From a virus, in the IMG/VR virus record IMGVR_UViG_3300025674_000108, positions 1 through 40,062 of that record: 40,062 nucleotides of DNA, one strand, 5' to 3'. Below the pieces are notes generated by a model. The model did not search any database. It worked only from the letters and a program-made list of their open reading frames with translations, and was not told the origin of the DNA. A program made the translations under genes and the position numbers. Positions 4,747-40,062 of this stretch are shown piece after piece. Every line of letters starts with the position of its first letter. Within the stretch, counting starts at the first letter, position 1.

Positions 4747-4927
4747 TTACTTCTTTGATCCAAATGATCGCACCTTTTTTAGTAGTAGTACAACCATCGC
4801 TATTAGGTCTGCGAGTACAAAAACAAGATATAGCCTTATTTTTGTCAATAGCCCAAATCTTGCGTCTCCCCATATAGCCTTTCGGCATGTCTTTATGTAT
4901 GTATTTGATTTCATATAAATTAGCCAT
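4724..4927 (-). CDS. Hypothetical protein, 67 aa
   Basis: This short basic protein (many Lys and Ile) overlaps the methyltransferase stop by 8 bases at its start and the endonuclease VII start by 23 bases at its end, so it belongs to the same transcript. It begins with a beta-strand-like segment (ANLYEIKYIHKDMPKGYMG) and includes CFCTRR and a later single Cys, which could be a partial metal site but lacks a full set. The family is not recognised. The tight overlaps and clean frame support it as real. Confidence 0.6.
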   Translation of the reverse strand: MANLYEIKYIHKDMPKGYMGRRKIWAIDKNKAISCFCTRRPNSDGCTTTKKGAIIWIKEVNEISTSD

Positions 4928-13983: not shown

Positions 13984-15641
13984 TGGAATTAGTATTTACC
14001 CAACATCCTATAGTAAAGCCCCCTACTGATGAAGAGATAGTATTGCTTGGCAAGAATGATCCCAAGTTACTAGCTGATCTGCACAGGGTTCATGAGGGCA
14101 GAATACAAGCAAGTATGGATGATCCATTAAAATTTGGCTTTGATCTTGCAGGCTGGGAGAGAATGCAGAGGGGCCTGGAAGAAAACAATGAATGCTTAGT
14201 CCTAGGTGGTAATCGTAGTGGTAAAACTACAGGTTGTGCTAAAATGGTCATGAAGGCAGTAACTGAGTCTAGGGATGGTCATTTAGTTTGTTTTAGCCAA
14301 AATGCAGATACATCTGTCAAAGTGCAGCAAGCTGCTATATGGGAGATGATGCCCAAAGAGTTCAAAAAGAAAACTAAAAGTATAGAAGGATACATTAATT
14401 ATTCTATGCAGAATGGTTTTACAGGTAGTAGCTTTATTTTTCCTGACACTAGAACTAGGGTAGATTTTAAGACTTATACTCAGTTTACTAACAATCAGAC
14501 TATAGTTGAGGGTTTTGAGTTTGGTTTCAAGAACCCTATAGGATTGAATATAGGAGCTTGGCTTGATGAGTACCTGGGCGATGCTACATTGGTAAATACC
14601 CTTAGATTCCGTCTTGCTACTAGAAACTCTAAGTTACTTATAGGATTTACACCTATTGACGGATATACACCATTTATATCTGAATACCTCAAGGGTGCAG
14701 AAACAACACAAACAAGAGAAGCTAAACTACTAAATAACGAACTTGTACCTATAGAACAGTACAGTCCTGATAGAGAAGCATCTATATGCTATTTGCATTC
14801 AGATGAAAATCCATTTGGTGGTTATGATCGTATAGCAAAAGACTTGCGTAACAGACCTGAAGACGAAATCAAAGTTCGTGCATATGGGCTACCTGTTAAA
14901 TCAATGACAAGTCTGTTACCATTATTTAATACACAAGTAAATGTACTATCTCAGACAAAAAACAAATACGGAATGCAATTTCCAGATATTACCAATAAGC
15001 GAAGATATAGTTGTTATCAAGTGGTCGACCCTGCCGGAGCTAGAAACTATGTATCAATCTGGGCAGCCGTGGACAAGGAAGGTAGAGTTTTTATACGGAG
15101 AGAGTGGCCCGACAGAAATACATATGGAGAGTGGGCTATCTATGGTGATCCGAAGTGGAGATACGGTCCTGCATCTAAAAAACTCGGATATAATGTTAGA
15201 GGATATGCTGAACTGTTTAGGGAAATTGAAGAAGAACTTGGAATAGAGGTATTTGAGCGAATAGGTGACTCTAGGTATTTTGCCAAGGAAAATGAAGACA
15301 ATGATGATTTGTTTACATCTTTCTACGATTATGATATGAACTTTGTGCCATCTGATGGTAGAGGCGAAGACATGGGTATATCTGCTTTAGATGATTGGTT
15401 CAGTTATAACCCTAACGAAAGTGTAGATGCAGCGAACTGTCCTATGTGCTATGTGCACGAAGATTGTGGCAATCTAATAGAATCTTTAATAAATTACAAT
15501 GCAAAGGGCAAATCTGACGAAGCCCTAAAAGATTTCTTTGATGTAATTAGGTATCTCCGTATGGTTAATGGAGGTGAAGGGCCTGATCATGTACAGTTCA
15601 AAGATATGCAAACAACATTAACAAACACAGGAGGCTACTAA
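13983..15641 (+). CDS. terL: Terminase large subunit
   Basis: The 552-residue protein has Walker A LGGNRSGKTTG (about 74-84) and Walker B NIGAWLDEYLGD (about 185-197), followed by a coupling segment LIGFTPIDG. The C-terminal nuclease domain begins near CYQVVDPAGARNY (about 345), with further acidic residues in GDSRYF and DDWFSYNPNE. It cuts concatemeric phage DNA and drives it through the portal using ATP. The start is GTG, overlapping the stop of the 83-residue gene (TAGTG). The length is normal for the family and all core motifs are present. Confidence 0.93.
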   Translation: MELVFTQHPIVKPPTDEEIVLLGKNDPKLLADLHRVHEGRIQASMDDPLKFGFDLAGWERMQRGLEENNECLVLGGNRSGKTTGCAKMVMKAVTESRDGHLVCFSQNADTSVKVQQAAIWEMMPKEFKKKTKSIEGYINYSMQNGFTGSSFIFPDTRTRVDFKTYTQFTNNQTIVEGFEFGFKNPIGLNIGAWLDEYLGDATLVNTLRFRLATRNSKLLIGFTPIDGYTPFISEYLKGAETTQTREAKLLNNELVPIEQYSPDREASICYLHSDENPFGGYDRIAKDLRNRPEDEIKVRAYGLPVKSMTSLLPLFNTQVNVLSQTKNKYGMQFPDITNKRRYSCYQVVDPAGARNYVSIWAAVDKEGRVFIRREWPDRNTYGEWAIYGDPKWRYGPASKKLGYNVRGYAELFREIEEELGIEVFERIGDSRYFAKENEDNDDLFTSFYDYDMNFVPSDGRGEDMGISALDDWFSYNPNESVDAANCPMCYVHEDCGNLIESLINYNAKGKSDEALKDFFDVIRYLRMVNGGEGPDHVQFKDMQTTLTNTGGY

Positions 15642-18428: not shown

Positions 18429-19475
18429 ATGAATAGTGAAATCAATACTGGTAACTCCGAGCCAGAAACTAATTCGGTGGACAATACAATTACAACATCT
18501 GATTTTATAAACAGTCGTTCTCAACCTGCGGAGGTTCAAGAAGAACCAAAACAAGTTGTAACACAAGCAGATCAAACAGAAGCAGCAAACGAACCGGAAG
18601 TACAAGAGAGCCCGGAACAAGTAGCTACCGAAGGAAAATCTGCAGATGTTCTTTCACAGGTAGATTTAGACAATATGTCTGAATCAGAATTAAGGGAAAT
18701 GGGTCAAAAGCTAGGAACTAAAGCAGTTGCTAGATTTGGCGAACTTACCGCTAGGCGAAAACAAGCTGAGGAGCGTATGCAAGCTATGGAGCAAGAGTTA
18801 CATCAACTCAAGCAAAGTAATGCAAAGGCTGCTCCAGAGGTCAAAAATAATCCATTAGAAAAAATTAAATCAATGAACGAATTGAAAAAGCATCAAGGTG
18901 CAGCACAAGAAGTCATTGAATGGGCTGAAGATTTGCTTGATAAGCATGAAGATGAAAAATCATCTTCAGTAATCGCTCATGTTAATAATAAGGATATGAC
19001 CAAAGCTGAAATTAAACAACAGTTACGACATTCAAGAAATGTAGTAAACAAGTATGTTCCTGCACAAGCAGCTACATTGCAGCGTAGGGCAGATATAATT
19101 AATCAATCAGCATCCTTCAAAAGACGAGCTCTTGAAGAGTTCGATTGGATCAGAGATAAATCTAATCCAACTAGCCAAAAGTACAATGCTATGCTAAAAG
19201 ATAAAAGAATAGCATCATTGGAACAAACCAATCCTGAAGTAAGTGCACAATTGCCTTACATTTTAGCTCATGCAGCCAATAGTATGTATGGAAGAAAACC
19301 GGTAGCTCCTGGTAAAGCACCGATTTCTCCTCCTAAATCTGTTGGAGGTAATGCAGCAAAAGCCGAAAGAAAGCCATCTAACCGATCTGCTTCTCAGCAA
19401 GAGGTTAACCAAAAGTTTAGATCATCAGGCGATGTTAATGATTTCATTGCTCTCCGAACCTTACAAAAATCTTAA
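18429..19475 (+). CDS. Capsid assembly scaffolding protein
   Basis: The 348-residue protein is hydrophilic and acidic in its first 90 residues (Glu, Gln, Ser, Thr-rich, probably disordered), followed by a coiled-coil region ARRKQAEERMQAMEQELHQL near 100-125, more helices, and a basic end (KAERKPSNRSASQQEVNQKF) that would contact the capsid shell. This is the usual layout of a phage scaffold, and it lies directly before the major capsid gene. It guides procapsid assembly and then leaves. Lack of sequence motifs makes position the main evidence. Confidence 0.8.
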   Translation: MNSEINTGNSEPETNSVDNTITTSDFINSRSQPAEVQEEPKQVVTQADQTEAANEPEVQESPEQVATEGKSADVLSQVDLDNMSESELREMGQKLGTKAVARFGELTARRKQAEERMQAMEQELHQLKQSNAKAAPEVKNNPLEKIKSMNELKKHQGAAQEVIEWAEDLLDKHEDEKSSSVIAHVNNKDMTKAEIKQQLRHSRNVVNKYVPAQAATLQRRADIINQSASFKRRALEEFDWIRDKSNPTSQKYNAMLKDKRIASLEQTNPEVSAQLPYILAHAANSMYGRKPVAPGKAPISPPKSVGGNAAKAERKPSNRSASQQEVNQKFRSSGDVNDFIALRTLQKS

Positions 19476-19495: not shown

Positions 19496-20503
19496 ATGTC
19501 ATTTTCAAATACATTTGACACAACTAATCAAGGTTCTGCTGTTTCCAACCGTGAGGATTTGACGGATGTCCTAACAATCCTTGCACCTGAAGAAACACCA
19601 GTCCTTTCGTCTGCTAGCAAATCTAAAGCTAATGCTACATTTGTTGAGTGGACAGTAGACAAATTATCCGATCCTGTAACATCAGGTATCGATGAAGGAG
19701 CAGATGTCACAACATTTACAGATAAATTTGCAGCTCGTGCTCGTCTTGGTAACTACATTCAAAAGTTCCGTAGAGACTACATGGTATCAGATTTGCAAGA
19801 GTCAGTTGAATCAGTTGGTCCTGCTAAAATTGCACAAGCTGAAGCTAAAGCTATTCGTGAGCTAAAGCGTGATGTTGAGGCTACATTAGTTAGCAGCAAT
19901 GACCGCAATGCTGAAGATGGTGCTGGTCAGCCTTACACTATGCGTGGACTTGGTAAATTCATTGAGTCTACTGCTAACACAGGTGGTGCTGGTGCACCTG
20001 CAGATATTCCTGCAGACTACCGTACACCTGCTGGTTCTATTAGTGCAGCTGGTAATGCAATTACAGAAACTCAGTTTAACACAGTTATCCGTTCAATCTA
20101 CGAAGAAGTTGGTTCTACTCAGAATCTTACTCTTGTAGCTGACACTAACTTACGCACAAGAATCTCAGACTTTGCTCGCCTTGCTGCAGCAACAGACGCT
20201 GCTGCTAATATGCGTAATGTTAATTACGATGGTAATAACTCTACTATTAAACTATCTGTTGAAATCTATCAGTCAGATTTCGGTACAGTTTCTATCGTTA
20301 ACAGTAATCCAAAATGTTCTGCAGATACTGCAAACTTAGATCAAGGTTTCTTCGTGAACCCTGAGTACTATGGTATTCATGATCTAATCCCAATGGGCTC
20401 AACTCGTCTACCTAACTTAGGTGGTGGTGAGCGTGGTTTCGTGGATTGTGCTCTTACATTAGGAGTATACCATCCTGCAGCACACGGTAAAATCGTTGGA
20501 TAA
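19496..20503 (+). CDS. Major capsid protein, SU10 type (DUF5309)
   Basis: The 335-residue protein begins FDTTNQGSAVSNREDLTDVL and contains FTDKFAARARLGNYIQKFRR, DYMVSDLQESVESVGPAKIA and AIRELKRDVEATLVSSNDRN, the conserved core of the SU10-like HK97-fold capsid family. Later PEYYGIHDLIPMGSTRLPNL corresponds to the P-domain end. It forms the icosahedral shell. It is followed closely by a decoration-like gene. Codon use is more regular than in neighbours, as expected for a highly expressed protein. No cleaved delta domain is evident, in line with a separate scaffold. Confidence 0.92.
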   Translation: MSFSNTFDTTNQGSAVSNREDLTDVLTILAPEETPVLSSASKSKANATFVEWTVDKLSDPVTSGIDEGADVTTFTDKFAARARLGNYIQKFRRDYMVSDLQESVESVGPAKIAQAEAKAIRELKRDVEATLVSSNDRNAEDGAGQPYTMRGLGKFIESTANTGGAGAPADIPADYRTPAGSISAAGNAITETQFNTVIRSIYEEVGSTQNLTLVADTNLRTRISDFARLAAATDAAANMRNVNYDGNNSTIKLSVEIYQSDFGTVSIVNSNPKCSADTANLDQGFFVNPEYYGIHDLIPMGSTRLPNLGGGERGFVDCALTLGVYHPAAHGKIVG

Positions 20504-23675: not shown

Positions 23676-23839
23676 TGGAAGATTTAGTAAACAGATTAAC
23701 AATTTCATTTTTGGGAGTAATAGCATCTTGGGGCTTAATGGATATTAGCATTATACTTGCATGTATCGCTTCAGTTGCTACTATCATAAATGCCACTCTT
23801 GGCATTTTAGAAATCCTGAAAAACAAAGATGATAAATAA
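23675..23839 (+). CDS. Small membrane protein, 54 aa
   Basis: A 54-codon gene, coupled to the appendage gene (TAATG) and overlapping the glycosyltransferase gene by 11 bases. The product MEDLVNRLTISFLGVIASWG then LMDISIILACIASVATIINA and TLGILEILKNKDDK has two hydrophobic segments (about 9-21 and 23-46), with a charged C-terminal tail. Size and topology fit a small holin or a spanin-like or accessory membrane protein. A second, larger holin candidate follows at 24575. Confidence 0.6.
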   Translation: MEDLVNRLTISFLGVIASWGLMDISIILACIASVATIINATLGILEILKNKDDK

Positions 23840-24578
23840 TTCATTTGTAATAGTATCTTGCCATTACAATTCTAGTAAATTTTTCAAAACTTGTTATAAC
23901 TCTTGCATAAGTCAAGATGATGATGATCTCGGAATTATTTTTATAGATGATTGTTCCATTGATTCAGAAAGAAAGGCATTTTTGGAATGTTTTACTGATT
24001 TAAAAAAAGTAGGTAGAAATTATTTTACTGCAAAAGCACACGGTAAAGATATTTTAGTATTACTAAATGATAAAAGAGTAACATCGGCTGCACTTAATCA
24101 ATACCTTGCAATAAAACATTTTGTTACTAATCCTGATGCCCTGTGTGGCATTGTAGATGCTGACGATTATTTATTCCAAAATGCAACAAAAATAGTTAGG
24201 GAAGAAATAGGTGATAATTGGATGTTTTGCTCTAATAACCGCAAGAAATCAGTTATACCTGATTTTAAGAAAAACATTAGAAAACAACCTTGGAAAATAC
24301 AACATTTCAGGGGTTGGAAAAAGAAATTATCAGATTTAGTGAGATTGCATAGTTTTTTTAGAAACGATAAAGTAATAGGTCCTGGAAGTGATTTACCTTA
24401 TATATATCCAATGATGGAAATGGCAGGTCCTGATAGAATAAAACATATAGAAAAAGAATTGTATTACTATAATAACAAAAATCCTATAAATGATTTTAAT
24501 GTAAATTTAAGTGAGCAATGCAAAACTAAAAGACTTGAAAGAAGTGTAGACCCATATGATAGAATAGATGTATTATGA
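23829..24578 (+). CDS. Family 2 glycosyltransferase, 249 aa
   Basis: The N-terminus FVIVSCHYNSSKFFKTCYNS, then IIFIDDCSIDSERKAFLECF, and the later LCGIVDADDYLF near 105-117 are the nucleotide-sugar-binding and DxD-type metal site of GT-A enzymes. It would transfer a sugar to an acceptor. Within the virion module, likely acceptors are virion proteins or host surface glycans; DNA is less likely because no hydroxymethyl-base pathway is present. Its TAA is overlapped by the holin-like gene by 4 bases (ATGA). Confidence 0.8.
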   Translation: MINNSFVIVSCHYNSSKFFKTCYNSCISQDDDDLGIIFIDDCSIDSERKAFLECFTDLKKVGRNYFTAKAHGKDILVLLNDKRVTSAALNQYLAIKHFVTNPDALCGIVDADDYLFQNATKIVREEIGDNWMFCSNNRKKSVIPDFKKNIRKQPWKIQHFRGWKKKLSDLVRLHSFFRNDKVIGPGSDLPYIYPMMEMAGPDRIKHIEKELYYYNNKNPINDFNVNLSEQCKTKRLERSVDPYDRIDVL

Positions 24579-24982
24579 CACCGGAAACGATAAGTTTATT
24601 TTTAGGTAGTGCAGTAGGTAGTATTAGTAAGCTCATAGGCAAAATGGTATCTGCTAGTATCGATATGAACAAAACCCAAGTAGAGGGTATGGTCACAAAA
24701 CAAAAGGCTGCAGACACAAGCCATGATAAGGCAGCAAGGCGTGGTGGAGAATGGACAAGAAGATTTATTGTAATAACTGTATTTTTCGCAGTTGTTATAG
24801 CACCATTTTTATTAGCACACAGTCCTGAAGGCATTACAGTAGGGCAAGAAAAAAGCTATATCTTTGGATTAATTAAAGGTATAGAGTATGAAACTTTATC
24901 AGGTTATTTAATATTACCTGAAATTAGACAAACAATAATGGCTATAGTAGGATTCTACTTTGGGTCAGCACAAATTAAATAG
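24575..24982 (+). CDS. Holin candidate, three-TM type
   Basis: The 135-residue protein has an N-terminal weakly hydrophobic helix (ISLFLGSAVGSISKLIGKMV), a charged linker with KAADTSHDKAARRGGEWTRR, a strong TM segment FIVITVFFAVVIAPFLLAHS and a C-terminal segment IRQTIMAIVGFYFGSAQIK. This matches proteins annotated as three-TM holins in gene transfer agents and marine phages, as I recall. It would make holes in the inner membrane for lysis timing. No endolysin is recognised nearby, which weakens the claim. Confidence 0.65.
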   Translation: MTPETISLFLGSAVGSISKLIGKMVSASIDMNKTQVEGMVTKQKAADTSHDKAARRGGEWTRRFIVITVFFAVVIAPFLLAHSPEGITVGQEKSYIFGLIKGIEYETLSGYLILPEIRQTIMAIVGFYFGSAQIK

Positions 24983-24991: not shown

Positions 24992-25087
24992 ATGCCATAC
25001 GGAAAAGGTACATATGGAAGTAAAGTAGGTAGACCATCAAAAGCTGCTAAAGCTAAAGGTCGTGCTAAAATGAAAGGTAAAAAATAA
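24992..25087 (+). CDS. Basic microprotein 1, 31 aa
   Basis: It has a strong AGGAGG ribosome site (24981-24986) 5 bases before the ATG. The product MPYGKGTYGSKVGRPSKAAK plus AKGRAKMKGKK is 11 of 31 residues Lys or Arg. Similar short MPYGKGTYG-type sequences are known to me from marine phage contigs. It is the first of seven coupled small genes; its TAA overlaps the next ATG. A nucleic-acid-binding role is suggested by charge only. Confidence 0.7.
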   Translation: MPYGKGTYGSKVGRPSKAAKAKGRAKMKGKK

Positions 25088-25383
25088 TGGCTGGTAAAAC
25101 AAAAAAATCTACGCCAAAAAAAGCTACTGTAGCTTCTTTATCTAAAAGGTTAGACAAGATAGAGTCTATGTTGCAAGGTGCAACTAGAGGACAATCTAGA
25201 TCTGAATCTAGACAGAGACCCCAAAGGTCACCACAAATGGCTCAAGGGCCATCAAGACCCAATGCACCTAGCGGACCAGCAGGTGGAGGAACTCGCCCTA
25301 TGCCAAGACAACAAGGTGGAGCAGGCATGCAATCTGGAGGAATGAGACGACCAGGAGGTATGGGAGGCATGAGAAATGCATAA
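25087..25383 (+). CDS. Basic microprotein 2, Gly/Arg/Pro-rich, 98 aa
   Basis: The N-terminal 35 residues are Lys-rich with a short helix (SLSKRLDKIESMLQG), and the remainder is low complexity with Arg, Gln, Pro, Gly and Met (GGMRRPGGMGGMRNA at the end), similar to RGG-type RNA- or DNA-binding tails. It would be positively charged and disordered. It overlaps the next small gene by 8 bases. Confidence 0.65.
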   Translation: MAGKTKKSTPKKATVASLSKRLDKIESMLQGATRGQSRSESRQRPQRSPQMAQGPSRPNAPSGPAGGGTRPMPRQQGGAGMQSGGMRRPGGMGGMRNA

Positions 25384-25459
25384 AGAAGGATGTTGTGTAA
25401 AATGCATGGGTGCAAAAGAAAGACCCAATGTAATTAACACAAAACGAAAAAAAGTATAA
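25376..25459 (+). CDS. Basic microprotein 3 with Cys cluster, 27 aa
   Basis: The frame encodes MHKEGCCVKCMGAKERPNVI plus NTKRKKV. The CCxxC (residues 6-10) could bind a metal with a partner chain. It overlaps the previous gene by 8 bases and its TAA shares one base with the next ATG, so it is part of the coupled row. The small size makes it the least certain of the seven. Confidence 0.5.
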   Translation: MHKEGCCVKCMGAKERPNVINTKRKKV

Positions 25460-25623
25460 TGGCTAAATTATGTGCAAGAGGTAAAGCAGCGGCTAAACGC
25501 AAGTACGATGTTTATCCATCTGCTTACGCTAATAGTTACGCAGTTCGTGTTTGCAAAGGTCAAGTGAAAGGATCAGATGGCAAAAAGAAAACTGCAAGCG
25601 GCTATACTAGAAAGAAAGTATGA
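25459..25623 (+). CDS. Basic microprotein 4, YPSAYAN family, 54 aa
   Basis: The product MAKLCARGKAAAKRKYDVYP then SAYANSYAVRVCKGQVKGSD contains the YPSAYAN motif with a flanking Cys pair (Cys5 and Cys32). I recall this short family, MAKLCxxGKAAAKRKFxVYPSAYAN, from many marine phages and also from some giant viruses. Its function is unknown. Wide conservation with a fixed aromatic motif suggests a specific binding role rather than simple charge. Confidence 0.75.
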   Translation: MAKLCARGKAAAKRKYDVYPSAYANSYAVRVCKGQVKGSDGKKKTASGYTRKKV

Positions 25624-25859
25624 GTCTAAGAAGATGGCATCAAGAGAAGTGGGTAGATATTAAAACTGGCAAACCTTGTGGAAGAGAATCAGCAAAAGGA
25701 AGCAAAAGAGCATATCCTGCCTGCAGACCCTCCAAGAGAGTTAGTTCTAAAACTCCAAAAACTAAATCAGAGATGTCTTCATCAGAAAAGTCAAAGTTTA
25801 AAAGAACAAAGACAAGCAGTAAAAGAATCCCATATTCGCACAAAAGAAAAAACGCATGA
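25620..25859 (+). CDS. Basic microprotein 5, WVD...PCGR family, 79 aa
   Basis: The ATG overlaps the previous TGA (ATGA). The product has WHQEKWVDIKTGKPCGRESA then KGSKRAYPACRPSKRVSSKT, PKTKSEMSSSEKSKFKR, a conserved pattern with two Cys (in PCGR and YPACRP). I recall this family from marine phages and large DNA viruses, often in the same cluster as the YPSAYAN and AGMTKKG families; databases list it as a domain of unknown function. About a third of residues are Lys or Arg. Confidence 0.75.
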   Translation: MSLRRWHQEKWVDIKTGKPCGRESAKGSKRAYPACRPSKRVSSKTPKTKSEMSSSEKSKFKRTKTSSKRIPYSHKRKNA

Positions 25860-25960
25860 AAAAAACATTACTATCAGTAGCAAAAAAATTAGAAAAAGCT
25901 AGTAAAGCTCATGCAGGGCAAGCTAAAACACTTAGAAAATTAATCAAAGATGGCAGATAA
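25856..25960 (+). CDS. Basic microprotein 6, amphipathic helix, 34 aa
   Basis: The frame encodes MKKTLLSVAKKLEKASKAHA then GQAKTLRKLIKDGR, which forms one long basic amphipathic helix. It overlaps the gene before by 4 bases (ATGA) and the gene after by 11 bases. Similar short helical sequences (KASKxHAxQAKTL) occur, as I recall, next to the other families of this cluster. A membrane or nucleic-acid surface are both possible targets. Confidence 0.65.
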   Translation: MKKTLLSVAKKLEKASKAHAGQAKTLRKLIKDGR

Positions 25961-26237
25961 ACCTATTAAAAGGACTACAGGCAAGGGTGGTAATTATAGA
26001 CCAACCAAAAGTGGAGCAGGTATGACTAAAAAAGGCGTAGCTGCTTATCGTAGGGCAAATCCAGGTTCAAAGCTAAAAACTGCAGTTACAGGCAACCCTA
26101 AAAAAGGTAGCAAAGATGCTAAACGCAGAAAATCTTATTGTGCTCGATCTTTAGGTCAGCTTAAACGCAGTTCTGCAAAAACAAGAAATGACCCAAACTC
26201 AAGAATACGACAAGCTCGTAGAAGGTGGAAGTGTTAA
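25950..26237 (+). CDS. Basic microprotein 7, AGMTKKG...SFCAR family, 95 aa
   Basis: The product contains TKSGAGMTKKGVAAYRRANP then GSKLKTAVTGNPKKGSKDAK and RRKSYCARSLGQLKR, ending RRRWKC. I recall this family (often ending in KSFCARM...RARKRWxC) from cyanophages and many marine phages as a domain of unknown function. It is highly basic, with two conserved Cys at the CAR and WKC motifs. It is followed without gap by the large tail gene, so the row is transcribed with tail genes. Confidence 0.78.
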   Translation: MADKPIKRTTGKGGNYRPTKSGAGMTKKGVAAYRRANPGSKLKTAVTGNPKKGSKDAKRRKSYCARSLGQLKRSSAKTRNDPNSRIRQARRRWKC

Positions 26238-28478
26238 ATGAGATATAATGAATACGGAGAGCATGATCAAAAGTATCAGGATGCAATAGAGACTGTTTTT
26301 GATGGATTTAACACAAGAACAAGACCTGATGCACTTGCTGGTGGTACTTTGCAATTATCACAAAACTTTAGGTTTGACCGTGCAGGTACTGCTAGGGTTC
26401 GTGACAGTATAACTTTAAAATCTGCTCCGTTGGCACTAGATGGAACTACTGCCTTTACATTGCCATTTTACGCTTATGGCTTACCTGACGATAATACTAC
26501 TACATCAAACAATGTAGACACTACTAGTATAACTCGAACAGGCACTACATTAAGACTTACTATGGATGCTGCTGACAATTTTTTTGTCAATGATACATTA
26601 GTGTTTATAGGTGCAATTACAGGACTTACAGATTACTCAACAGGTAATTACAAAATTACTGCAAGAACAAGTACCTATATAGAGGTAGTAATTGCAGGGA
26701 TAGGAGGAACACCATCTGGAAACACTACATTAGGAGCACCAAGATTGCAGGATTCATTTGTTACTAGAGTGTATGGTTCATGTGTATTTGCTGATCCTAA
26801 AAATGAAGGAGAACAATATATAATTTTAGCAGGAAATGCTAGTGCAACTGCCGTAAAAGTATCAGATGCTTCAACAACAACTATTACATATGATAGTGGT
26901 GCAATATTTATAGGCGAAAATGTAAACCTTATACAGGCTTTAAACAAGGTTTATTTATTCAGAAAGGGTCAAACTACACTTGAGTGGAATCAATCGCTTA
27001 CAGGCAGTCCTAACTTTACTAAAGTACCAAATGGTTCGTATACCCAACCACAGGAATACGCAAGTAATAATAATACAGAAATTTTAAACGGAAAGGTAAC
27101 AGTTACTGAAAATAGTCATGGATTAGAAACAGGTAATATTATATCAGTTATTGAATCTGCACATGATACTTTAAATGTTGGTGATCAGTTTAGGGTTACA
27201 AAAATTGATGATAATAGTTTTTATTTTTATGCAACTGCAGATGATACATCAGGTGCTATAACTAATAAATTCATAGGTCGAGTTTCTGACGGTGGTGGAT
27301 TTATACACAGTCCTGCCCCTGAGTTTGGAATACTACACCAAGATAGATTAGTTGTACCTTATGCTTATACATCAGATAGTAGTCCTGCAAAAAGAGATCA
27401 AGTTGATGAAATACTTTTTTCTGAAGCATTTTTTCCTGATCAATTTGATCCTATATTTGGATTTGGAAGAATGTTTCCAGGTACAGACGATAGGGTTGTG
27501 GGATTGTTTTCATTTGCTGATGAAAAACTAATTGCATTTAATAGAAATAGTATTTTTATTTTTGGAGATGTAACTACTTTGCCAGGAACAAAAGAATTAG
27601 TTACTCAAGAATTAGGACTAGTTGCTAGAAGAAGTGTAGTCCAAGTTGGTAATCAAATTTTGTTTTTGTCAGATAATGGAGTATACGGAGTTAGTTTCCA
27701 AGATTTGTATAACCTTCGTGGTAATGATGTACCATTAAGTGAGCCTATACAAAGTATATTCGATAATATCAATAAAAGCCAATGGGATAGGTCTGTAGCA
27801 GTTTACTTTGATAATAGATACTATATATCTATACCACTAGATGATGATGATTTAACCAATGGTCAATCAAGTGAAAACAATAATTGTTTGTTAATATTTA
27901 ACTTTTTAAATAAAAAATGGGAAAGTATAGATAATGTAGGTACTGTAGCTAGAGATGGAACTCCGGTTTCTTGGGACATACAAAACCTTTTAGTAGCTGG
28001 TGATGGAGATGATCGTGCAGTATATGCTATAAATAGTTTAGGTGGAATCCATAAAATTGATGGTTCTAATACTATAGGAGACGATAATCTTGTTACAAAT
28101 ATAGGATCAAGCACTCTGTCTGTTCCGTTTCCACCAATTATAAGAACTAAACAATATAATTTCAAAACAAGTCAGCGTAAAAAATGGAATGAATTTGAAC
28201 TGCAGGTTAAGTCTAATGATAACATATCTTCTGACATAGATATAAGATTTACAACAGAAAACGAAGACAAAATTATTGGTATAGGTAGCCTAAGTGATTT
28301 TAATGATACAGGCGATCCATTAAGACCAGGAGAAGACCTTTCCATCCGTGGTAGAATAGGTAATGTAAGAGCGTATGGAATAGATGCAGAATTTACAGTA
28401 ACATCAGGAAAACCAGAAATTAAATTATTTAGGGTTACTGGTGGTTTAACATTTAACTCAACACAACCCTCAGAATAA
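26238..28478 (+). CDS. Large tail protein, tail tubular B / nozzle-like, 746 aa
   Basis: The N-terminus VFDGFNTRTRPDALAGGTLQ then LSQNFRFDRAGTARVRDS has the FxGxxTRxxPxxLxxGxxxxxxN pattern of podovirus tail nozzle proteins, and the centre (VGLFSFADEKLIAFNRNSIF, then SVVQVGNQILFLSDNGVYGV) shows beta-propeller-like repeated strands. With the adaptor it would make the short tail tube. Length is near that of T7 gp12. The ATG follows the preceding TAA directly. Confidence 0.75.
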   Translation: MRYNEYGEHDQKYQDAIETVFDGFNTRTRPDALAGGTLQLSQNFRFDRAGTARVRDSITLKSAPLALDGTTAFTLPFYAYGLPDDNTTTSNNVDTTSITRTGTTLRLTMDAADNFFVNDTLVFIGAITGLTDYSTGNYKITARTSTYIEVVIAGIGGTPSGNTTLGAPRLQDSFVTRVYGSCVFADPKNEGEQYIILAGNASATAVKVSDASTTTITYDSGAIFIGENVNLIQALNKVYLFRKGQTTLEWNQSLTGSPNFTKVPNGSYTQPQEYASNNNTEILNGKVTVTENSHGLETGNIISVIESAHDTLNVGDQFRVTKIDDNSFYFYATADDTSGAITNKFIGRVSDGGGFIHSPAPEFGILHQDRLVVPYAYTSDSSPAKRDQVDEILFSEAFFPDQFDPIFGFGRMFPGTDDRVVGLFSFADEKLIAFNRNSIFIFGDVTTLPGTKELVTQELGLVARRSVVQVGNQILFLSDNGVYGVSFQDLYNLRGNDVPLSEPIQSIFDNINKSQWDRSVAVYFDNRYYISIPLDDDDLTNGQSSENNNCLLIFNFLNKKWESIDNVGTVARDGTPVSWDIQNLLVAGDGDDRAVYAINSLGGIHKIDGSNTIGDDNLVTNIGSSTLSVPFPPIIRTKQYNFKTSQRKKWNEFELQVKSNDNISSDIDIRFTTENEDKIIGIGSLSDFNDTGDPLRPGEDLSIRGRIGNVRAYGIDAEFTVTSGKPEIKLFRVTGGLTFNSTQPSE

Positions 28479-29251
28479 TGGCAGGAATTGAAACAAGTCA
28501 ATCATTTGGAAATAACGATCAGGTAACGGCAGCTAGTCTTAATGGTATTATTTCTAATTCTAAATTAAATACCGATGCAGTAGATGGTAATGGATCATCA
28601 ACTGGAACTATTTATGTAAATGGTAGTGGTGTTTTATCAGTCGGAACTATAGATGAAGGCAATATTAATGCTAATCAAGTTACTTTAGGTAAATTAGCAC
28701 AATTGGATGATGGCAAAGTAATAGGTAACACTACAGGCAGTACTGCAGACCCATCTGCTACTAGTGTAGTAATTAGTACATCAGCAGGTGATACAAATGG
28801 TTTATTGTTTGATAATGATGATATGCTTGACAATGATGATACTGCAGGTGGTTCAGCTACTAGAGGAGCTACTCAGCAGTCCATTAAAGCATATATAGAC
28901 TCAGATGCAGTAAAGCTAGCAGGGTTTGACCCTACTGAAGTTGCAGGTGGCTCTACTGATGGAATAGGAGCTAGACATGAAACTGTAGGATTACCTAATG
29001 GTTTAGTGATGAAAATAGGTGCTTTAGCACCTGCTGATGCCGCAGACACGCAAACTACTGTAGACTTTAGTGCACTTTCAGGTGGATCGGATTTTGGTAC
29101 TGCCGTATATTGTGCAAATGTAGCATGGGAAAAAACAGGTGCATTCGCTGCAGGTTCGTTAGCTTATGTAGATACTTTAGATAAAACTCAGTTGATTATA
29201 AATCATACTGCAGGACCTACATTGTTACACTATACTGTCTACGGAAGATAA
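28478..29251 (+). CDS. Putative tail fibre / appendage protein, 257 aa
   Basis: The N-terminal 150 residues are Gly, Asp, Asn, Ser and Thr-rich with repetitive strands (SGVLSVGTIDEGNINANQVT), typical of a fibre shaft; the C-terminal 80 residues (VMKIGALAPADAADTQTTVD then FSALSGGSDFGTAVYCANVA) resemble a compact head domain of the gp53-like type. It probably binds the host surface. The start overlaps the nozzle gene stop by one base. Confidence 0.6.
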   Translation: MAGIETSQSFGNNDQVTAASLNGIISNSKLNTDAVDGNGSSTGTIYVNGSGVLSVGTIDEGNINANQVTLGKLAQLDDGKVIGNTTGSTADPSATSVVISTSAGDTNGLLFDNDDMLDNDDTAGGSATRGATQQSIKAYIDSDAVKLAGFDPTEVAGGSTDGIGARHETVGLPNGLVMKIGALAPADAADTQTTVDFSALSGGSDFGTAVYCANVAWEKTGAFAAGSLAYVDTLDKTQLIINHTAGPTLLHYTVYGR

Positions 29252-32200
29252 TGCCTCCTCCAAATAGAAATAACTATTATGTTGACGACAGAGACTCTGG
29301 CGTTGATCCAAATTTTATTGCATACAATCAGCCTACAACTAGGGTTGATGAAGATGGAACATATTATGAATTACCTGACTTAGTTGTTGAAGAAAAACGC
29401 TTTGATGGCTATGATATAGATATTCCAATAGGTACTGTTGATTGGATTATGAGTTCTGGTGAAACACGAACTCAACAAGCATACTATATGCAATATATGG
29501 CAGACCGTTTAGGATGGGTAGATGGTTGGGATGTTTATGAGATAGATAAAACAAATGCCATGATCAACATCTATGAAAGTACTTGGAATAAAATAACAGG
29601 TAGAGAAGATGATTTTTGGAATTTGCCTAATCCGATAGAAATGGTCAACGACATATTTAAAAAATTTGTCAAAGACAAAAATGGAGACCCTGCTCGATTA
29701 CCTGAAGAAGTTTTAACTGCTGGTGGTTATAGAGATGATGATTTAGGTAAAAATTTTGTTCAAGATATTCCTGTATTTTTAACAACTGATGAATTATTAG
29801 AATCGGTTAGTACAGGTCAGCCTTATATTATGCCATCAGATATGGCAGAGGTAAACAAAAGCAACAATGCATTTATTCGGTGGTTAGATGATAACATAAT
29901 AGACCCTGTAGAAGGTTTTGGCGTAGCTATTCAAAAAGCCGTTGGTGGTAAAGCTCCTGAAATGATATTAAATTCTATAGGTTTTGCTAATGGAATGCCT
30001 TTTTTAGGTAGTGCTATTAATGCAATTGCAGATTTATTAGGGCCTAAGAAGGGATCGGCATGGCTTGATTACTTGCAAAATAATGGATACATTGATGCAA
30101 ATGGTAATACTTTAAAAGACTTTGATCCAACTTATTGGGGACAAGCAAGAGATACATTAAATGACTTTTTTAACAATCCTCCTGAAGACGAAAATGGCAA
30201 TAGGGATTATGGCATGCAGCTTGAAACTGAGCAAATGTTTGCAGAGTCAATTAGAAATATATTGGTAGAAGAAGCAGGAGTAGACCCTGAACTTATCAAA
30301 GATATGTCTGTAGAGAGCTTAACTGAACTTTCAGGTTATATTTCAGATATTTTAACAGAAGATCAAATAAGTGCAATACCTGCAGGAAGGCAAGATATTT
30401 CAGATTATGACAATTACTATAATGATGGTACTGAAACAGGAACTGATTTCAGCCAAGAATTAGATCAATTAGAGCAATGGGTACAAGATCAAACAGTAAA
30501 CCCTAGTGAGTGGTTTGACAGATTGGGAATTAAACCTGAAGATGCTACTGCTTTTGGTAATGCAGCTGGTGATCGTATAGGTGGTTTTTTAAGCAATCAT
30601 TTTACTGATGCATATAATGGAGTTGGAGGTTGGGATGATTACAATTGGTTTGGTCATAACGGTGACCAAGATTGGTGGGATTATCATATTAATCAAACCA
30701 ATCAATATGTAAACCCTGTATTTGATGAATTAGCACAAAACCATATTATTGCAAACACCGGGTTATTTCCTAATTCTAACGATAATATTACAGGCACAAC
30801 TAGTCTTTTTGCACAATATACTGATGGAACTTATGGTATTTTAGGAGATATGTCTGGAGATTGGGGTACTGCTACAGATGTATTTAACAATCGTGATCAA
30901 TGGGGTTATAGCGGTTGGCATACTAGTCAGTTTTATGAAGATAATACTGGAGATGGATATGCTGATGATACAACTGATTCAGGCGATTTCTTTAATGCAA
31001 AAAATACACCTAGTAATTCTCTAAATTCTAGTGCACTTATGAAGTCCATTGGAATAGTTAATGTAGATGATTTTGGAAGGTCTGACGAATCAGGTAGATC
31101 ATTGACATTTGATAAAATACAAGAAGATTATAGAAATGGTTTATCAAACTTAAATGAAAAATATCTTAATAAGGAAATCGGCATAGAACAACTCTTGCAA
31201 GGACAGGAAGATTTGGGAAAAATGAAAGACGATGCTCTTCAAAAAAGAAGAGAGGAACTAGAGTACCAAGATGAATGGACTGAAGAAGAATTAGAAGACT
31301 TAGTTGAAGAATTTGGACTTGAAGCCGCTGAAGAAATATCAGGTATTGATATTGATGATTCAGGTAGCATAGGTGAAACAGGCTTGTCACAGGAAGATTA
31401 TGGTCGGCAAAGAACATATGATCGTGACATGGAAAGTTATGGTGATAATGATGGTGATAATATACCTGATTACCCTAAAGATGAATTTGGAGATACTGCA
31501 GTTAACCCTAGTACAGGAGAAACATATGGTTTTAAAGATGGTAGATCAATATATGATGCAGATGTAGATACAGGTGAAGCATTAAGACCAGGAAGTGAAT
31601 TAAAATCAGATTTTGAAAAAGAATGGCTAGATGTATTTGGAGACCCCAATGCTACATCATGGACTGAAACTGCTCCTGGAGTTTTTGAGCCAAATGGATA
31701 TTACAATTATCAAGATACAAATACAGGGTATACATATAGTTACGATCCTGAAACAGGATATACAACTATTGATTACGGTCCTAATACTGACTATGTAGGT
31801 ATTGATAAAGACGGAGATAATTATGCTGACGGTTATGATACTGACGGAGATGGAATAGCTGATACATTTCTCGGAACAAATGTTAGAAAAGAAAATGATG
31901 AAAATCCATACGGAGAAAATGTACAAGGATATTTAGATGAAGGTAGAGATGTACGAATTGTAAATGAAGATGGAACAGTTACTGATGCTCGAACAGGAAA
32001 TGTGTTAGATGACCCTAGAACACAAAAATTTGACGAAGATGGATATGTTGTAGATAAATCTACAGGAAAGAAATACGGCAGAGGGAGTGATGGTAGTTTG
32101 CAAGAATACTCCGATGGTGGCTTGCACCCTAAAGAAGTTGAAATGATTGATAACTTTGGCTGGCACGACAATGGAGATGGAACTATATCCAAAATTAGAG

Positions 32201-35200
32201 GTTCAGGAGCTAAAGTTAATTTTGAAGATGATACAGTAGGTCAAGGTTCAATTGTAGGTTATCATGGAGATAATAACACTATGTTAGGTGATGACCAAGG
32301 TGGTGGAAGCCAAGGTAGCTCAGGTGGACTAGTTAATATAGGTACTGATAATCAATTAACTACTAACGAACAAAATGCAGTTAATAGTGGCGATTATATA
32401 GATAACGGAGATGGAACTATCTCTAGAATTGGTACAACTGATAAGATAAATTATAACCAAGAAACTGAAACATATGAGAAAGTAGGAAGCCTTTCTGAGC
32501 CAGCCTCTGACCCAAATGCTAATCAGGGTAGCGACCAGGGTAGCGACCAGAGTAGCAACCAGGGTGGTAGTTCAGGTGGACTAATAGGAGATGATTCTAG
32601 TAATTCAGTAGGCGTAGGTGATAACATCGACATGAAATCATATGATTGGAATGGTGATGGTTTCTTAACTGGTTCAGAGTTGTCCAACTATGATTATAAT
32701 ATGGAAAATGGTCAGTTGCCTTCTGATATAGGTCAACATAACCAAGATATGATTCATTATCCTATCGAAAGTAAGATTAATGAAGCTAGAAATCTTATAG
32801 AAGAAGGTAGAACTGAAGAAGCTGCATCAATTTTAAATGATTTAAGATTGAATCCACCTGAAGGTAAAAATAGAAAACAAGTAGATGTACAACTAAGAAA
32901 TGTAGGACTATTTGAGGACTCAGGTGAAAACCCTGTTTATTACGAAAGTGGTAACATAGTAGTTAGACAACCTGTTACAAGTGACCAAGAAGGCGACACA
33001 AGTGGTGGAGATCAAAGTGGTGACACAAGTGGAGGTAATCAGAGTGGTAACCAAAATAATGTAGATGTAGGAAACCAAAATAATAACCAAGGAAACCAAA
33101 ATAATAACCAAGAAGACCAAGATGGTGGTGGCAGTTCAGGCAGTAGCGGTGGTTCAGCAGGTGGAGGCATGAATACTGGCGGTAATCTTATTGGAACTAC
33201 TCCTGGTGAAAATGATGGTAGTGGAGCTAGTGGTGGTGGAGAAACTAGTGGTGAAGAAATCGTTGGCAACGAAGGTGGTGATACTAACGAAGGTGGTGAT
33301 ACTAACGCAGGTGGTGATACCAATGCAGGTGGTGATACTAACGCAGGTGGTGATACCAATGCAGGAGGAGATACTAATGCAGGAGGAGATACTAATGCAG
33401 GAGGAGATACAAGTGGTGGAGACGCAGGTGGTGATACTAACGCAGGTGGTGGAGACGCAGGTGGTGACACAAGTGGTGGTGATATAACTGTAGGTGAAGG
33501 AACAACTGTAGGTAACGAAGAAGAAATTGCAGGAAACACGGGCCAGGACCTTAATACAGATGTTGTTACGACTACAACTAACCCTGGTGATTTAGATGAG
33601 GAAATAGCAGGTGCTATAAATACTACCGTAGGATCAGGCGAAGGAAATACCTCAATGTTCACTACAGATACTAGCATTTCAGGAGATTTATTAACAGGAG
33701 GATTCTTAGATTCAACTGAAACTAGTGTATCTACAGATATTGGAGGAAATACTACAGATGTAGATACTACAATAGATACTACAACAGATACTACAACAGA
33801 TACTACTAATACAACAACTGATACTACAACAGGTGAAGTTCCTCAAATCTTTACAGGAACACAACCTGGGTTAGAGGGTACAATTTTTGACACTAGTGGT
33901 ACAATAGGAGGAAATACAGAAGTGGCAGACGATAACACAGGAATAGGTAACGCAGGTGAATCAGGAGGTGCAGAAGATTTTGATTTAGCATATGAATACG
34001 CAGTTACTATAGGTGCACCTAACCCAGAATCATATAGAGGTAAAGGGTTAGCAGGCATTTTGGGCATAGCAGAAGAGTATGAAACGCTTTCTGCTGAAGC
34101 CGCATTGCGTACTCAATCTAAGATAGCTACTCAGCAACAAGCGGTTGATAATCAATTAAGAAAAATACAAAAAGGTGAAGACCTTGATTTAATTGGTCAA
34201 TTCGGAGAATCTTACAGAGATTCACTTCGTGCATTACAACCTGAAAGAAGTGCATTAACACAAGAATTGTACACTCAAGCTATGAAGAAGTACGATGACT
34301 TGGATAAACCATTTACATCTAGGGAATTAGCTGACGCAAGAAGAGAATCGTATGCACTTGCATCTGCACAAGGAAGGCAATTTGACCCTGTTCTAGGATT
34401 ATATACATATAATCAAATGGATGGAGTTCGAGATAAGAAAGAACAAGCTGCTACTACTGCTGCACTAAACGCATTTAATACTGCTGGAAGTTTAGATAAC
34501 AATGTTCTCAATGCCTTAATGATGGGTAGTAAGTTTACACCTACTACAGTTACACCTTCATTTAGTTCTGGTACTGCAATGAATTTAGGACTTGGCAACT
34601 TTGCAAATCAACAGGCGTATCAACAAAATCAAGAAGCACAAAGAATAGCACAAGAAAATTATAGGGCAGCAGTTGCAGCAGGAGAACCTAGTGGAATTGA
34701 AAAAGCATACAATGACTTACAAGAAGTAATTATGTATGGAACAGCAGCTAAAGAAGGATATGAGTTTTTCTTTGGTGACGGTGATGGTAGTGGAGGCTTT
34801 TTTGGTCAAGCAGTAGATTTTGGTAAAGATGTTATTGGTGGTGCAGCAGGTGTAGTAGGTGATATTTTGAATTTTGGAACTACAGAACAAATTACAGATG
34901 CAGGAGCTAGTGATGGATATGATTATTCAAGTAATACTCCTGAGTATAGTAGTTGGGAACAGTCTTTTAATGCAAAAAATGATCAATATTCGGATACAGT
35001 TAGTGATATAATAGACAGTTTTACTCCTGGTGGCTCTGCTATGGATGCTGCAAAAGATAGTGGTAAATCTTGGTCTGAAGCTAACAAACCATTTGGCGGC
35101 TATTCATGGTGTTGGGTAGCTAGAGAAGTTTATGGTGCAAACAATCCTAAGTGGCTAATGTTTAGAGAGTGGTTATTTACAAAAGCACCTGTATGGTTTA

Positions 35201-35304
35201 AGAACCTATATGGTAAATACGGTGAAAGATTTGCAAAATTCATATCTAATAAACCAAGAGTTAAAAAATTAATTCGCAACTGGATGGATACTAAAATTAA
35301 ATAG
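29251..35304 (+). CDS. Giant virion-associated protein with Ca-binding-type motifs, 2017 aa
   Basis: Residues 1-650 are a mixed, aromatic and Asp/Asn-rich region without known motifs. From about 695 to 1145 there are DxDxDG-type loops: DIDDSGSIGE, DNDGDNIPD, DKDGDNYADGYDTDGDGIAD, two DNGDGTIS repeats and the EF-hand-like DWNGDGFLTGSEL. Residues about 1265-1520 are low complexity, with tandem GGDTNA and TTDTTTD repeats. After that comes a helical region (about 1600-1850) and a distinct C-terminus, CWVAREVYGANNPKWLMFRE then WLFTKAPVWFKNLYGKYGER, which I recall as a conserved tail in marine phage proteins. It probably sits in the virion as a fibre or ejection component; calcium binding is inferred. 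It occupies about 16% of the genome. Confidence 0.7.
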   Translation: MPPPNRNNYYVDDRDSGVDPNFIAYNQPTTRVDEDGTYYELPDLVVEEKRFDGYDIDIPIGTVDWIMSSGETRTQQAYYMQYMADRLGWVDGWDVYEIDKTNAMINIYESTWNKITGREDDFWNLPNPIEMVNDIFKKFVKDKNGDPARLPEEVLTAGGYRDDDLGKNFVQDIPVFLTTDELLESVSTGQPYIMPSDMAEVNKSNNAFIRWLDDNIIDPVEGFGVAIQKAVGGKAPEMILNSIGFANGMPFLGSAINAIADLLGPKKGSAWLDYLQNNGYIDANGNTLKDFDPTYWGQARDTLNDFFNNPPEDENGNRDYGMQLETEQMFAESIRNILVEEAGVDPELIKDMSVESLTELSGYISDILTEDQISAIPAGRQDISDYDNYYNDGTETGTDFSQELDQLEQWVQDQTVNPSEWFDRLGIKPEDATAFGNAAGDRIGGFLSNHFTDAYNGVGGWDDYNWFGHNGDQDWWDYHINQTNQYVNPVFDELAQNHIIANTGLFPNSNDNITGTTSLFAQYTDGTYGILGDMSGDWGTATDVFNNRDQWGYSGWHTSQFYEDNTGDGYADDTTDSGDFFNAKNTPSNSLNSSALMKSIGIVNVDDFGRSDESGRSLTFDKIQEDYRNGLSNLNEKYLNKEIGIEQLLQGQEDLGKMKDDALQKRREELEYQDEWTEEELEDLVEEFGLEAAEEISGIDIDDSGSIGETGLSQEDYGRQRTYDRDMESYGDNDGDNIPDYPKDEFGDTAVNPSTGETYGFKDGRSIYDADVDTGEALRPGSELKSDFEKEWLDVFGDPNATSWTETAPGVFEPNGYYNYQDTNTGYTYSYDPETGYTTIDYGPNTDYVGIDKDGDNYADGYDTDGDGIADTFLGTNVRKENDENPYGENVQGYLDEGRDVRIVNEDGTVTDARTGNVLDDPRTQKFDEDGYVVDKSTGKKYGRGSDGSLQEYSDGGLHPKEVEMIDNFGWHDNGDGTISKIRGSGAKVNFEDDTVGQGSIVGYHGDNNTMLGDDQGGGSQGSSGGLVNIGTDNQLTTNEQNAVNSGDYIDNGDGTISRIGTTDKINYNQETETYEKVGSLSEPASDPNANQGSDQGSDQSSNQGGSSGGLIGDDSSNSVGVGDNIDMKSYDWNGDGFLTGSELSNYDYNMENGQLPSDIGQHNQDMIHYPIESKINEARNLIEEGRTEEAASILNDLRLNPPEGKNRKQVDVQLRNVGLFEDSGENPVYYESGNIVVRQPVTSDQEGDTSGGDQSGDTSGGNQSGNQNNVDVGNQNNNQGNQNNNQEDQDGGGSSGSSGGSAGGGMNTGGNLIGTTPGENDGSGASGGGETSGEEIVGNEGGDTNEGGDTNAGGDTNAGGDTNAGGDTNAGGDTNAGGDTNAGGDTSGGDAGGDTNAGGGDAGGDTSGGDITVGEGTTVGNEEEIAGNTGQDLNTDVVTTTTNPGDLDEEIAGAINTTVGSGEGNTSMFTTDTSISGDLLTGGFLDSTETSVSTDIGGNTTDVDTTIDTTTDTTTDTTNTTTDTTTGEVPQIFTGTQPGLEGTIFDTSGTIGGNTEVADDNTGIGNAGESGGAEDFDLAYEYAVTIGAPNPESYRGKGLAGILGIAEEYETLSAEAALRTQSKIATQQQAVDNQLRKIQKGEDLDLIGQFGESYRDSLRALQPERSALTQELYTQAMKKYDDLDKPFTSRELADARRESYALASAQGRQFDPVLGLYTYNQMDGVRDKKEQAATTAALNAFNTAGSLDNNVLNALMMGSKFTPTTVTPSFSSGTAMNLGLGNFANQQAYQQNQEAQRIAQENYRAAVAAGEPSGIEKAYNDLQEVIMYGTAAKEGYEFFFGDGDGSGGFFGQAVDFGKDVIGGAAGVVGDILNFGTTEQITDAGASDGYDYSSNTPEYSSWEQSFNAKNDQYSDTVSDIIDSFTPGGSAMDAAKDSGKSWSEANKPFGGYSWCWVAREVYGANNPKWLMFREWLFTKAPVWFKNLYGKYGERFAKFISNKPRVKKLIRNWMDTKIK
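33274..33480 (+). repeat. Tandem 18-bp repeat encoding GGDTNA
   Basis: At least seven units of about 18 bases, GGTGGTGATACTAACGCA and variants, are followed by related GGDTSGGDAGGDTNAGGGDA units. Variants differ mostly at third codon positions (AAC/AAT, GCA, GGT/GGA), indicating selection on the peptide after expansion. Unit number is likely to vary between strains. A Thr/Asp-rich repeat follows at about 33764-33830. Confidence 0.9.
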
Positions 35305-39700: not shown

Positions 39701-39919
39701 AGGGCAAACTTAGGAGTTGATTCTGCCCTTATGTTGGCAGATATGTCTGAAGCTGATCCAAGATTTAGAATGAGTTTACTCGAAGAGTACGCAGGTATTT
39801 TTCAAAGAAGTTTTGACGAACAATTAGAGTTTGAAACAAGGCTCAATGAATTGAAGATGCTAAGAGCTAACGATCCAGCATTGGATTTGACTTTCTCTCC
39901 ACCAACAGAAACAGAGTAA
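36728..39919 (+). CDS. Large virion (ejection-type) protein, 1063 aa
   Basis: Residues about 185-220 form a hydrophobic Ala/Pro/Phe-rich segment (DVIPFLFNIGTTVFAWPYAT), which could insert in the host membrane; residues about 394-441 are a coiled coil (LNAKNALKGLQEEEATIKAN). The remainder is helical and charged. The last 410 residues are repeated, with about 15% changes, in the frame at 2-1240, so two alleles of this part are present in the window. As the last and second largest gene of the virion module it resembles T7 gp16-like ejection proteins in position and general character. I see no lytic transglycosylase motif. Confidence 0.7.
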   Translation: MSEYKLWNPERKSYVTFEYDGEGRPDASTGIELLQSNKDNALIELSKGAPKTPTKTIETPYLTPNPYGVNIGPTGFETTYERPVEIDTTERDNWYKENVPKALGINSYDFTLDGEGSSGDRAKADFLRNDRHKRQWMEQEYGPENVAVYNVGGKHTFFYKDPKEKDAKWKFFDSPDVNGLDVTADLSADVIPFLFNIGTTVFAWPYATLATAPATGPAAPISGGYVASTAGNVVEFGAGVIQDEIAAEALGVDIKSSEILAMRATDLAINQGTDAVLGFMGKMLPSFKYGQAYSNQVAKEQTAFYESVVGPDGRVPLYVQRGSKQGEAGTGIDLDRAANIASKYPNGATAKQFTQAREKAVTDIRNKFGANELTEAEAEVILRESVETMTQQYDDDLLNAKNALKGLQEEEATIKANIDNIPKRVSDQAEEAFELAKQKRINKVTTRDSKPINKQGVELIDINRSRYIQLEGTRTRMFDNVYTKLDNVRVNISDVIDSFNTVGNKARTAGENELLPILMNSSEKYANRVITSLDEVAEDQIGFRQLNKLIQEIELKINRDVVGQDAAGPSKIDYTNLANQLRGIRDDILESPAVSDATRAQFDKANDFFKNTILPYRKRPTFKFYKPEGGQRYDTAIAQNAKGEQFTLPRLDGGGNGEGYINFALQSVSNLKMVLQDGGNSPEVRKALGNAWLRLNGLSEGSAINVGKLKEMSDADLEMASILFPGRGKAEFSQKVQSLIDLDNLVRDKDGFIEGISPELHRKIMNAEDPVQQDKLLKIAQQQIEEQNKIDEVTGKVLVDLQSKGEIPTFSNQFTIESYMSSLFKDGVNIKQFNQLLKEVREKSPADYKAYKRAAYDYLVNRSGGGTNYEKGAQKAFGEITFDPVQMLKNLEDNREKLISLLGENEFNFIKSRAKSMREFSVTQEKAAGKFSIAGNPLQGFGTGFFSDLGGVANERWTQAMLMIDDTGKNPFNKKLVSRNELFQIQSSFYLRANLGVDSALMLADMSEADPRFRMSLLEEYAGIFQRSFDEQLEFETRLNELKMLRANDPALDLTFSPPTETE

Positions 39920-40062
39920 TAAAAAGGGCGACCCTGGGCCGCCCTTAGTAGATAATAGTCACAATGCAAATTAAGTCGAAGAAAAGTATAAGGACTTAAA
40001 TAGGAGGAGAGAAATATCAAAAACCTCCCTGCAGGTGTTACCATTCTGCATTACCTTATTCC
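38671..40062. repeat. Right copy of imperfect terminal duplication
   Basis: This is the counterpart of 1-1404. It contains the 3' part of the 1063-residue gene, the terminator hairpin (39921-39946) and the start of the untranslated and coding end of operon C. The window ends at the base matching 1404, inside the 70-residue gene. Confidence 0.9.
39921..39946 (-). terminator. Second copy of convergent terminator
   Basis: The stem AAGGGCG (39924-39930) and CGCCCTT (39940-39946) is identical to that at 1266-1288. The only change is the loop base (T at 39935, A at 1277). It is two bases after the stop of the last virion gene, so at the real junction it separates the convergent late and early transcripts. 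Confidence 0.8.

Follow-up and report, generated by a model that had tools for sequence, protein, structure and literature searches.

Seven small basic proteins of a phage genome as candidate head-internal, DNA-associated proteins with fused relatives in cyanophages

Background

The internal proteins IPI, IPII and IPIII of phage T4 are small and basic, several are found per phage, and the sets are not identical between phages. They are present at ~300 copies each and bind DNA at low salt, and they are directed to the head by a short N-terminal capsid-targeting sequence (CTS), with residues 4 and 7 important for targeting and residues 8 and 10 for processing (PMC9026906). A prohead protease is part of this system, and T4 gp21 cuts after L/I-x-E (PMC9026906). 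Closer in sequence to the proteins described here are T4-GC119 of the T4-like cyanophages (phrog_727, phrog_10346 and phrog_3477) and the two Pfam families DUF5872 (PF19197) and DUF6321 (PF19846), both of which are named in Pfam as being of unknown function. A giant algal virus has likewise been reported to carry DUF5872 (PMC12085832), and no mention of DUF6321 was found in the literature searched. Small cationic proteins also occur in lysis modules, such as disruptin (phiKT gp28), a cationic lysis-module peptide required for outer-membrane disruption.

Results

The window, that is the whole stretch of 40,062 nucleotides analysed (IMG/VR record IMGVR_UViG_3300025674_000108), contains at positions 24992 to 26237 seven overlapping small ORFs of 31, 98, 27, 54, 79, 34 and 95 amino acids, all on the plus strand and preceded by an AGGAGG (TAGGAGGT), as an earlier note made from the sequence alone had described. 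The successive junctions overlap by 1, 8, 1, 4, 4 and 11 nt. The final stop codon directly adjoins the next ATG at 26238. The first protein, p1 (24992..25087, 31 aa, MPYGKGTYGSKVGRPSKAAKAKGRAKMKGKK), has a homologue in C75C1, p2 (25087..25383, 98 aa) has a short coiled-coil-like N-terminus followed by a P/Q/G/R-rich tail, and p3 (25376..25459, 27 aa, MHKEGCCVKCMGAKERP..) contains three Cys. The fourth protein, p4 or A1 (25459..25623, 54 aa), belongs to a YPSAYAN family, the fifth, p5 or A2 (25620..25859, 79 aa), to a WVD..PCGR..YPxCxP family and the seventh, p7 or A3 (25950..26237, 95 aa), to an AGM..CAR family; between the last two lies the cationic helix-like p6 (25856..25960, 34 aa, KLEKASKAHAGQAKTLRKLI). 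The proteins had been called small and mostly highly basic, and their net charges from p1 to A3 are +11, +16, +6, +13, +20, +9 and +27, with pI values from 9.8 to 12.0.

The closest relative is contig L245, whose major capsid protein is 95% identical to that of the window and in which all seven ORFs are kept in unchanged order, together with an eighth small ORF. The product of the latter is also basic (MGKGMTPKKGYNQKKYEENYDSIF..), and its gene lies at ~14194-14310, between p3 and A1. Compared with L245, all seven ORFs are under purifying selection, with pN/pS values from p1 to A3 of 0.23, 0.52, 0.05, 0.09, 0.08, 0.08 and 0.22, p2 being the fastest evolving. Values of 0.05-0.23 in six ORFs and 0.52 in p2 point to frames that are translated and under selection, and overlap cannot explain the low ratios, as adjacent frames share only a few bases.

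The cassette is located inside the virion module, where it had been placed. Upstream are a probable acidic scaffold gene (18429..19475, plus strand), so called from its position and composition only, and the major capsid protein (MCP) gene (19496..20503, plus strand), a homologue of which is annotated as major head protein in C75C1; downstream is a gene for a 746-aa head-closure or virion structural-like protein (26238..28478, plus strand). The window proteins are thus small, basic and encoded in the late head region, as expected of T4-type internal head proteins. Directly upstream of the cassette, and not part of it, is the gene of a 135-aa holin-like membrane protein (24575..24982, plus strand; phrog_38283), the holin function being deduced from its sequence since PHROGs assigns none. 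A glycosyltransferase family 2 gene (23829-24578) also lies beside the cassette. Elsewhere in the window, a probable cytosine methyltransferase (4920-6050) and a 2017-aa protein with DxDGD-like motifs and (AGGDTN) repeats (29251-35304) were recognised by eye. Positions 1-1404 match positions 38671-40062, the last 1392 bases, at 86.6% identity, and over the final ~150 bases the two are almost the same; the ends of the contig probably join up and may derive from two related strains.

Family searches matched A1 to phrog_27331 (7.6e-19), A2 to DUF5872 (4e-13) as well as phrog_23735, and A3 to DUF6321 (1.1e-12) and, at their C-termini, to several long PHROGs, and they gave no significant match for p1, p2, p3 and p6. 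The three families named in the earlier note (phrog_27331, the second half of DUF5872, and DUF6321) are thus real and widespread in aquatic phages. By profile score, the two Pfam families are direct homologues of window proteins: A3 reaches 48.8 bits against a DUF6321 cut-off of 28.5 over positions 6-72 of 72, and A2 reaches 50.4 against a DUF5872 cut-off of 27.5 over positions 55-112 only. DUF5872 as a full-length single protein (positions 1-116) does not occur in the cassette, where it is split over two ORFs. A1 of the window itself does not match the DUF5872 profile; its homologue in contig L118 matches positions 1-39 at 39.7 bits, and A1 in relatives corresponds to the first ~40-54 positions of the family.

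A2 and A3 each have two invariant Cys. In the A1 family alignment both Cys are present in 60 sequences and the first alone in none; 51 sequences lack the second Cys and have an aromatic residue in place of the first, and 16 combine a second-site Cys with another pattern at the first. The terminal Cys of A1 co-vary, both being gained or lost at once, and could form a disulfide or a metal site. A3/DUF6321 is predicted to adopt a four-helix fold (helices at 27-36, 55-73, 76-80 and 85-92; pLDDT 82), for which no relative was found among PDB structures and whose clear matches among viral structures are almost only DUF6321 proteins. The A2 model was dropped for its poor quality (pLDDT 64), and sequence searches of the PDB gave nothing credible, weak matches to SMAD4 and myosin being judged to be due to chance. 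Among cellular genomes taken one per species, A2 was found at 21 loci in 84,980 species, mostly on marine MAG or SAG contigs, and its near absence there indicates that these are essentially viral families.

Co-occurrence, which the earlier note had set beforehand as a refutation test, was examined by scanning viral contigs and with profiles built for A1-A3. A2 was found within 1 kb of A1 in 48 of 53 loci selected through A1, and A1 came first in 191 of 192 same-strand pairs. The other associations within 1 kb were A2 to A1 in 27/51, A3 to A1 in 27/52 and A3 to A2 in 32/52 loci. Among 25 loci selected through the MCP, and thus independently of the cassette, 14 had A1 and A2, 10 had neither and one had A2 alone (Fisher P = 3e-6), a P value that overstates independence since the loci are related; in the same set the A1-A3 and A2-A3 associations were not significant (P = 0.09 and 0.18). 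Homologues of p1 (21 of 21) and p6 (23 of 25) lay within 1.5 kb of A1, A2 or A3, many of these loci having been fetched via A1-A3.

The recurrent parts of the cassette are therefore A1-A2-A3 together with p1 and p6. The seven do not form a fixed unit: p2 and p3 are confined to close relatives, with a 29-aa ORF similar to p3 in C75C1, and content and order vary, as in L275, P-SCSP2, C75C1 and HTVC106P. Isolates of different lineages carry the set (HTVC027P, P-SCSP2, 023Pt_psg01 and HTVC203P), others part of it (HTVC023P, HTVC106P, C72C1, C75C1, CRP-2 and DSL-LC04), and A1-A3 are kept in phages infecting SAR11, cyanobacteria and Roseobacter. HTVC027P gp49-gp52 correspond to A1, A2, p6 (gp51) and A3 in the order of the window, and P-SCSP2 genes 19-23 include the same four, with the p6 equivalent before A2; both phages differ from that of the window in lineage and in flanking genes.

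The domains that are encoded separately in the window are joined in other viruses. Pfam DUF5872 is itself an A1/A2 fusion, its positions 1-39 matching A1 proteins and 55-115 matching A2. T4-GC119 contains A2-like, A1 and DUF6321 domains homologous to p5, p4 and p7; unlike the window ORFs, it is one multi-domain chain with extra domains and is usually encoded near terminase genes. It consists of A2-like, A1, CWxGY and A3 domains in S-BM3 (337 aa), of A2-like and A3 domains in P-TIM68, and of A2-like, Cys-type A1, CWxGY and A3 domains in S-SCSM1_29 (517 aa), where A2-like and A1 were assigned by eye. GC119-like ORFs showed the domain strings A2-A1-A3 (12 ORFs), A2-A3 (10) and A1-A3 (9), and fusions were also found in contigs L157 (A2 and A1) and L163 (A2 and A3). 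The GC119 gene lies between TerS and TerL in P-TIM68, P-HM2, S-CREM2 and S-SZBM1, directly after TerS in S-BM3 and near TerL in S-SCSM1. The three separate podophage ORFs thus correspond to parts of one cyanophage protein.

Some further fusions were noted. The basic phrog_7595 family (RFGDPNM..RKSFRARH..YWSC) was seen both next to the cassette and as a fusion with A2 (L006 5175-5414, L009 1832-2116, L023 and L035); it weakly resembles a 'minor head protein and DNA pilot' profile (E 0.0085). In some large-phage contigs among L017-L048, A1 is fused to two upstream parts, a helix motif at the N-terminus (LTExDLxxIVKKVLxEQ) and a YMFFSNL..GHDWADDH domain that is conserved; the motif, in the form LTExxLxxIVKKVLxEQ, was dropped as a candidate targeting signal, as it was found on no known packaged protein. 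In L159 (3382-4464), a region containing a zincin-like HEIGH motif, recognised by eye, is joined to A2.

A T4-type CTS is present in some A3 relatives and, by inspection, in none of the seven ORFs of the window. The 165-aa DUF6321 protein S-SZBM1_192 starts with MKTFKQYITEA, which matches positions 4, 7, 8 and 10 of the T4 sequence. A looser pattern occurs in the whole S-SZBM1 genome at three annotated CDS starts (SSZBM1_140, 191 and 192) and at two non-start places; the cytidylyltransferase SSZBM1_140 has been detected in virions by mass spectrometry (PMC9146016). The strict, Met-anchored CTS was found in 6 of 98 distinct DUF6321 ORFs, the other 92 being without it, and in 27 of 2198 other ORFs (P = 0.002, an exploratory value). 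In contig L449 it is joined directly to the DUF6321 domain (MKTFSEYLNE followed by DWQKK). The 25 background ORFs inspected out of these 27 appear to be largely one GC119-adjacent gene, MKSFKQFLSESVNISGDFNG, resembling S-SZBM1_191. This gene, with its T4-type CTS (MKSFKQFLSES..ISGDFNG), was observed as S-SZBM1_191 (L331 4312-4629) and in many of contigs L336-L415, and the CTS on it suggests a putative cluster of internal head proteins.

In multi-domain ORFs, the pattern [hyd]xE[ASGDTN] was found at most 8 aa upstream of 36% of A3, 55% of A2 and 51% of CWxGY domains, compared to 3.4-4.5% for randomly chosen positions within these proteins, an enrichment of 8-15 times that is exploratory, as this pattern and the strict CTS were refined after examples had been seen and the sequences are related. 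Such prohead-protease-like sites before basic domains support a possible cleavage there. An earlier signal of an E before A2 was weak, the set having been mixed with podophage proteins, and was replaced by these anchored tests.

Relatives have been reported in virions. S-CREM2 gp137, the product of ORF137 (108049-109521, 490 aa), has a C-terminal DUF6321 and no recognised A1 or A2; it was detected by mass spectrometry in CsCl-purified virions with 4 unique peptides and 4.1% coverage (PMC10665884 Table 3), and the authors concede that abundant proteins from outside the virion may have been carried over (PMC10665884). S-SCSM1_29 is annotated as 'virion protein' in its genome record. The S-SCSM1 lysozyme and carboxypeptidase are reported as detected by mass spectrometry (PMC9602691); both share this label and TerL is without it, so the label of S-SCSM1_29 is read as probably based on mass spectrometry. 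S-SZBM1_192 is absent from the virion list of its phage (PMC9146016), a Lys/Arg-rich protein of this kind being easily missed with trypsin.

Discussion

The cassette is the split form of a conserved set of viral basic domains, fused relatives of which have been reported in cyanophage virions. As three of its genes belong to a set that recurs across unrelated aquatic phages, and relatives in other phages have been found in virus particles, the cassette proteins of this marine phage are probably packaged alongside its DNA and are not just a random collection. We consider it likely, with a probability of roughly 0.6, that they are DNA-associated proteins of the head interior, analogous to T4 IPI-III. 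Of the three roles proposed in the earlier note (DNA condensation, ribosome or RNA targeting, and packaged early effectors), a packaged and DNA-associated one is best supported, and there is no evidence for ribosome or RNA targeting. The small basic proteins would be made late, together with the head genes, a timing suggested by their position, taken into the procapsid, kept with the DNA in the mature head and probably ejected along with it. Podophages like that of the window use one ORF per domain, and T4-like cyanophages have the same domains on one chain, T4-GC119, with prohead-protease-like (hydrophobic-x-E) sites ahead of the domains and, in some cases, a T4-type CTS. We infer packaging of the window phage's own proteins from these relatives; their putative DNA binding is suggested by charge alone, and the hydrophobic-x-E sites are putative targets of a prohead protease. 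The analogy to T4 has its limits, as no prohead protease was identified in the window, no homology to IPI-III showed in the family searches, and A1-A3 are more conserved than the T4 internal proteins are said to be.

The evidence for packaging would equally fit proteins that are injected as early effectors, for anti-restriction or host take-over like T4 IPI or Alt, their charge serving mainly for packaging. Ejection is indeed known for the T4 internal proteins, of which IPI inhibits a restriction enzyme (PMC9026906). The content of the cassette also differs between close relatives, as would suit such effectors. However, anti-defence proteins usually diverge fast, whereas A1-A3 are strongly conserved (pN/pS 0.08-0.22) in phages with SAR11, cyanobacterial or Roseobacter hosts, and the algal giant virus mentioned above has DUF5872. 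We therefore regard injected effectors as unlikely, and a role in genome organisation or head assembly would be favoured over one in host take-over.

The genes around the cassette bear on a further alternative, namely that the proteins are lysis-associated cationic membrane disruptors like phage phiKT disruptin. A holin-like gene lies directly upstream in the window, p6 resembles a cationic helix, and many pelagiphages have the cassette after endolysin or holin-like genes. The nearest large upstream gene of 49 non-redundant cassettes was an endolysin in 7 and the holin-like phrog_38283 in 6, that is in 13 of 49, but a portal in 5, a head assembly gene in 4 and a scaffold in 4, and the likeness to disruptin is one of position only. 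Genes that recur on the downstream side are those for major head proteins, GroES, TerL and the tail tape measure. Moreover, the set lies between scaffold and MCP in P-SCSP2 and GC119 lies near terminase genes, fused forms appear in virion lists and bear targeting motifs, and a membrane-active peptide has no need of invariant Cys and Trp patterns, which makes a lysis function very improbable. It is just as hard to believe that these are cytoplasmic RNA- or ribosome-binding late proteins merely contaminating virion preparations, as their high charge and the carry-over allowed for by the S-CREM2 authors (PMC10665884) might suggest, in view of the capsid-targeting sequences, the protease-like sites, the recurrent head-operon position and the lack of a credible ribosomal or RNA-binding domain match in the family searches.

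Conclusions

Beyond the analogy to the T4 internal proteins, these modular, Cys-containing basic domains might tentatively be seen as a conserved virion toolkit that coats or organises encapsidated DNA in podophages, T4-like cyanophages and giant algal viruses, and that would be made as a polyprotein processed by the prohead protease in T4-like phages and as separate ORFs in small podophages; this wider proposal is possible, though doubtful. DUF5872 and DUF6321, both common in aquatic phages, gain a concrete candidate role from being linked with one another, with T4-GC119 and with capsid targeting. A class of small head proteins rich in Lys and Arg may, moreover, escape virion proteomics that relies on trypsin.
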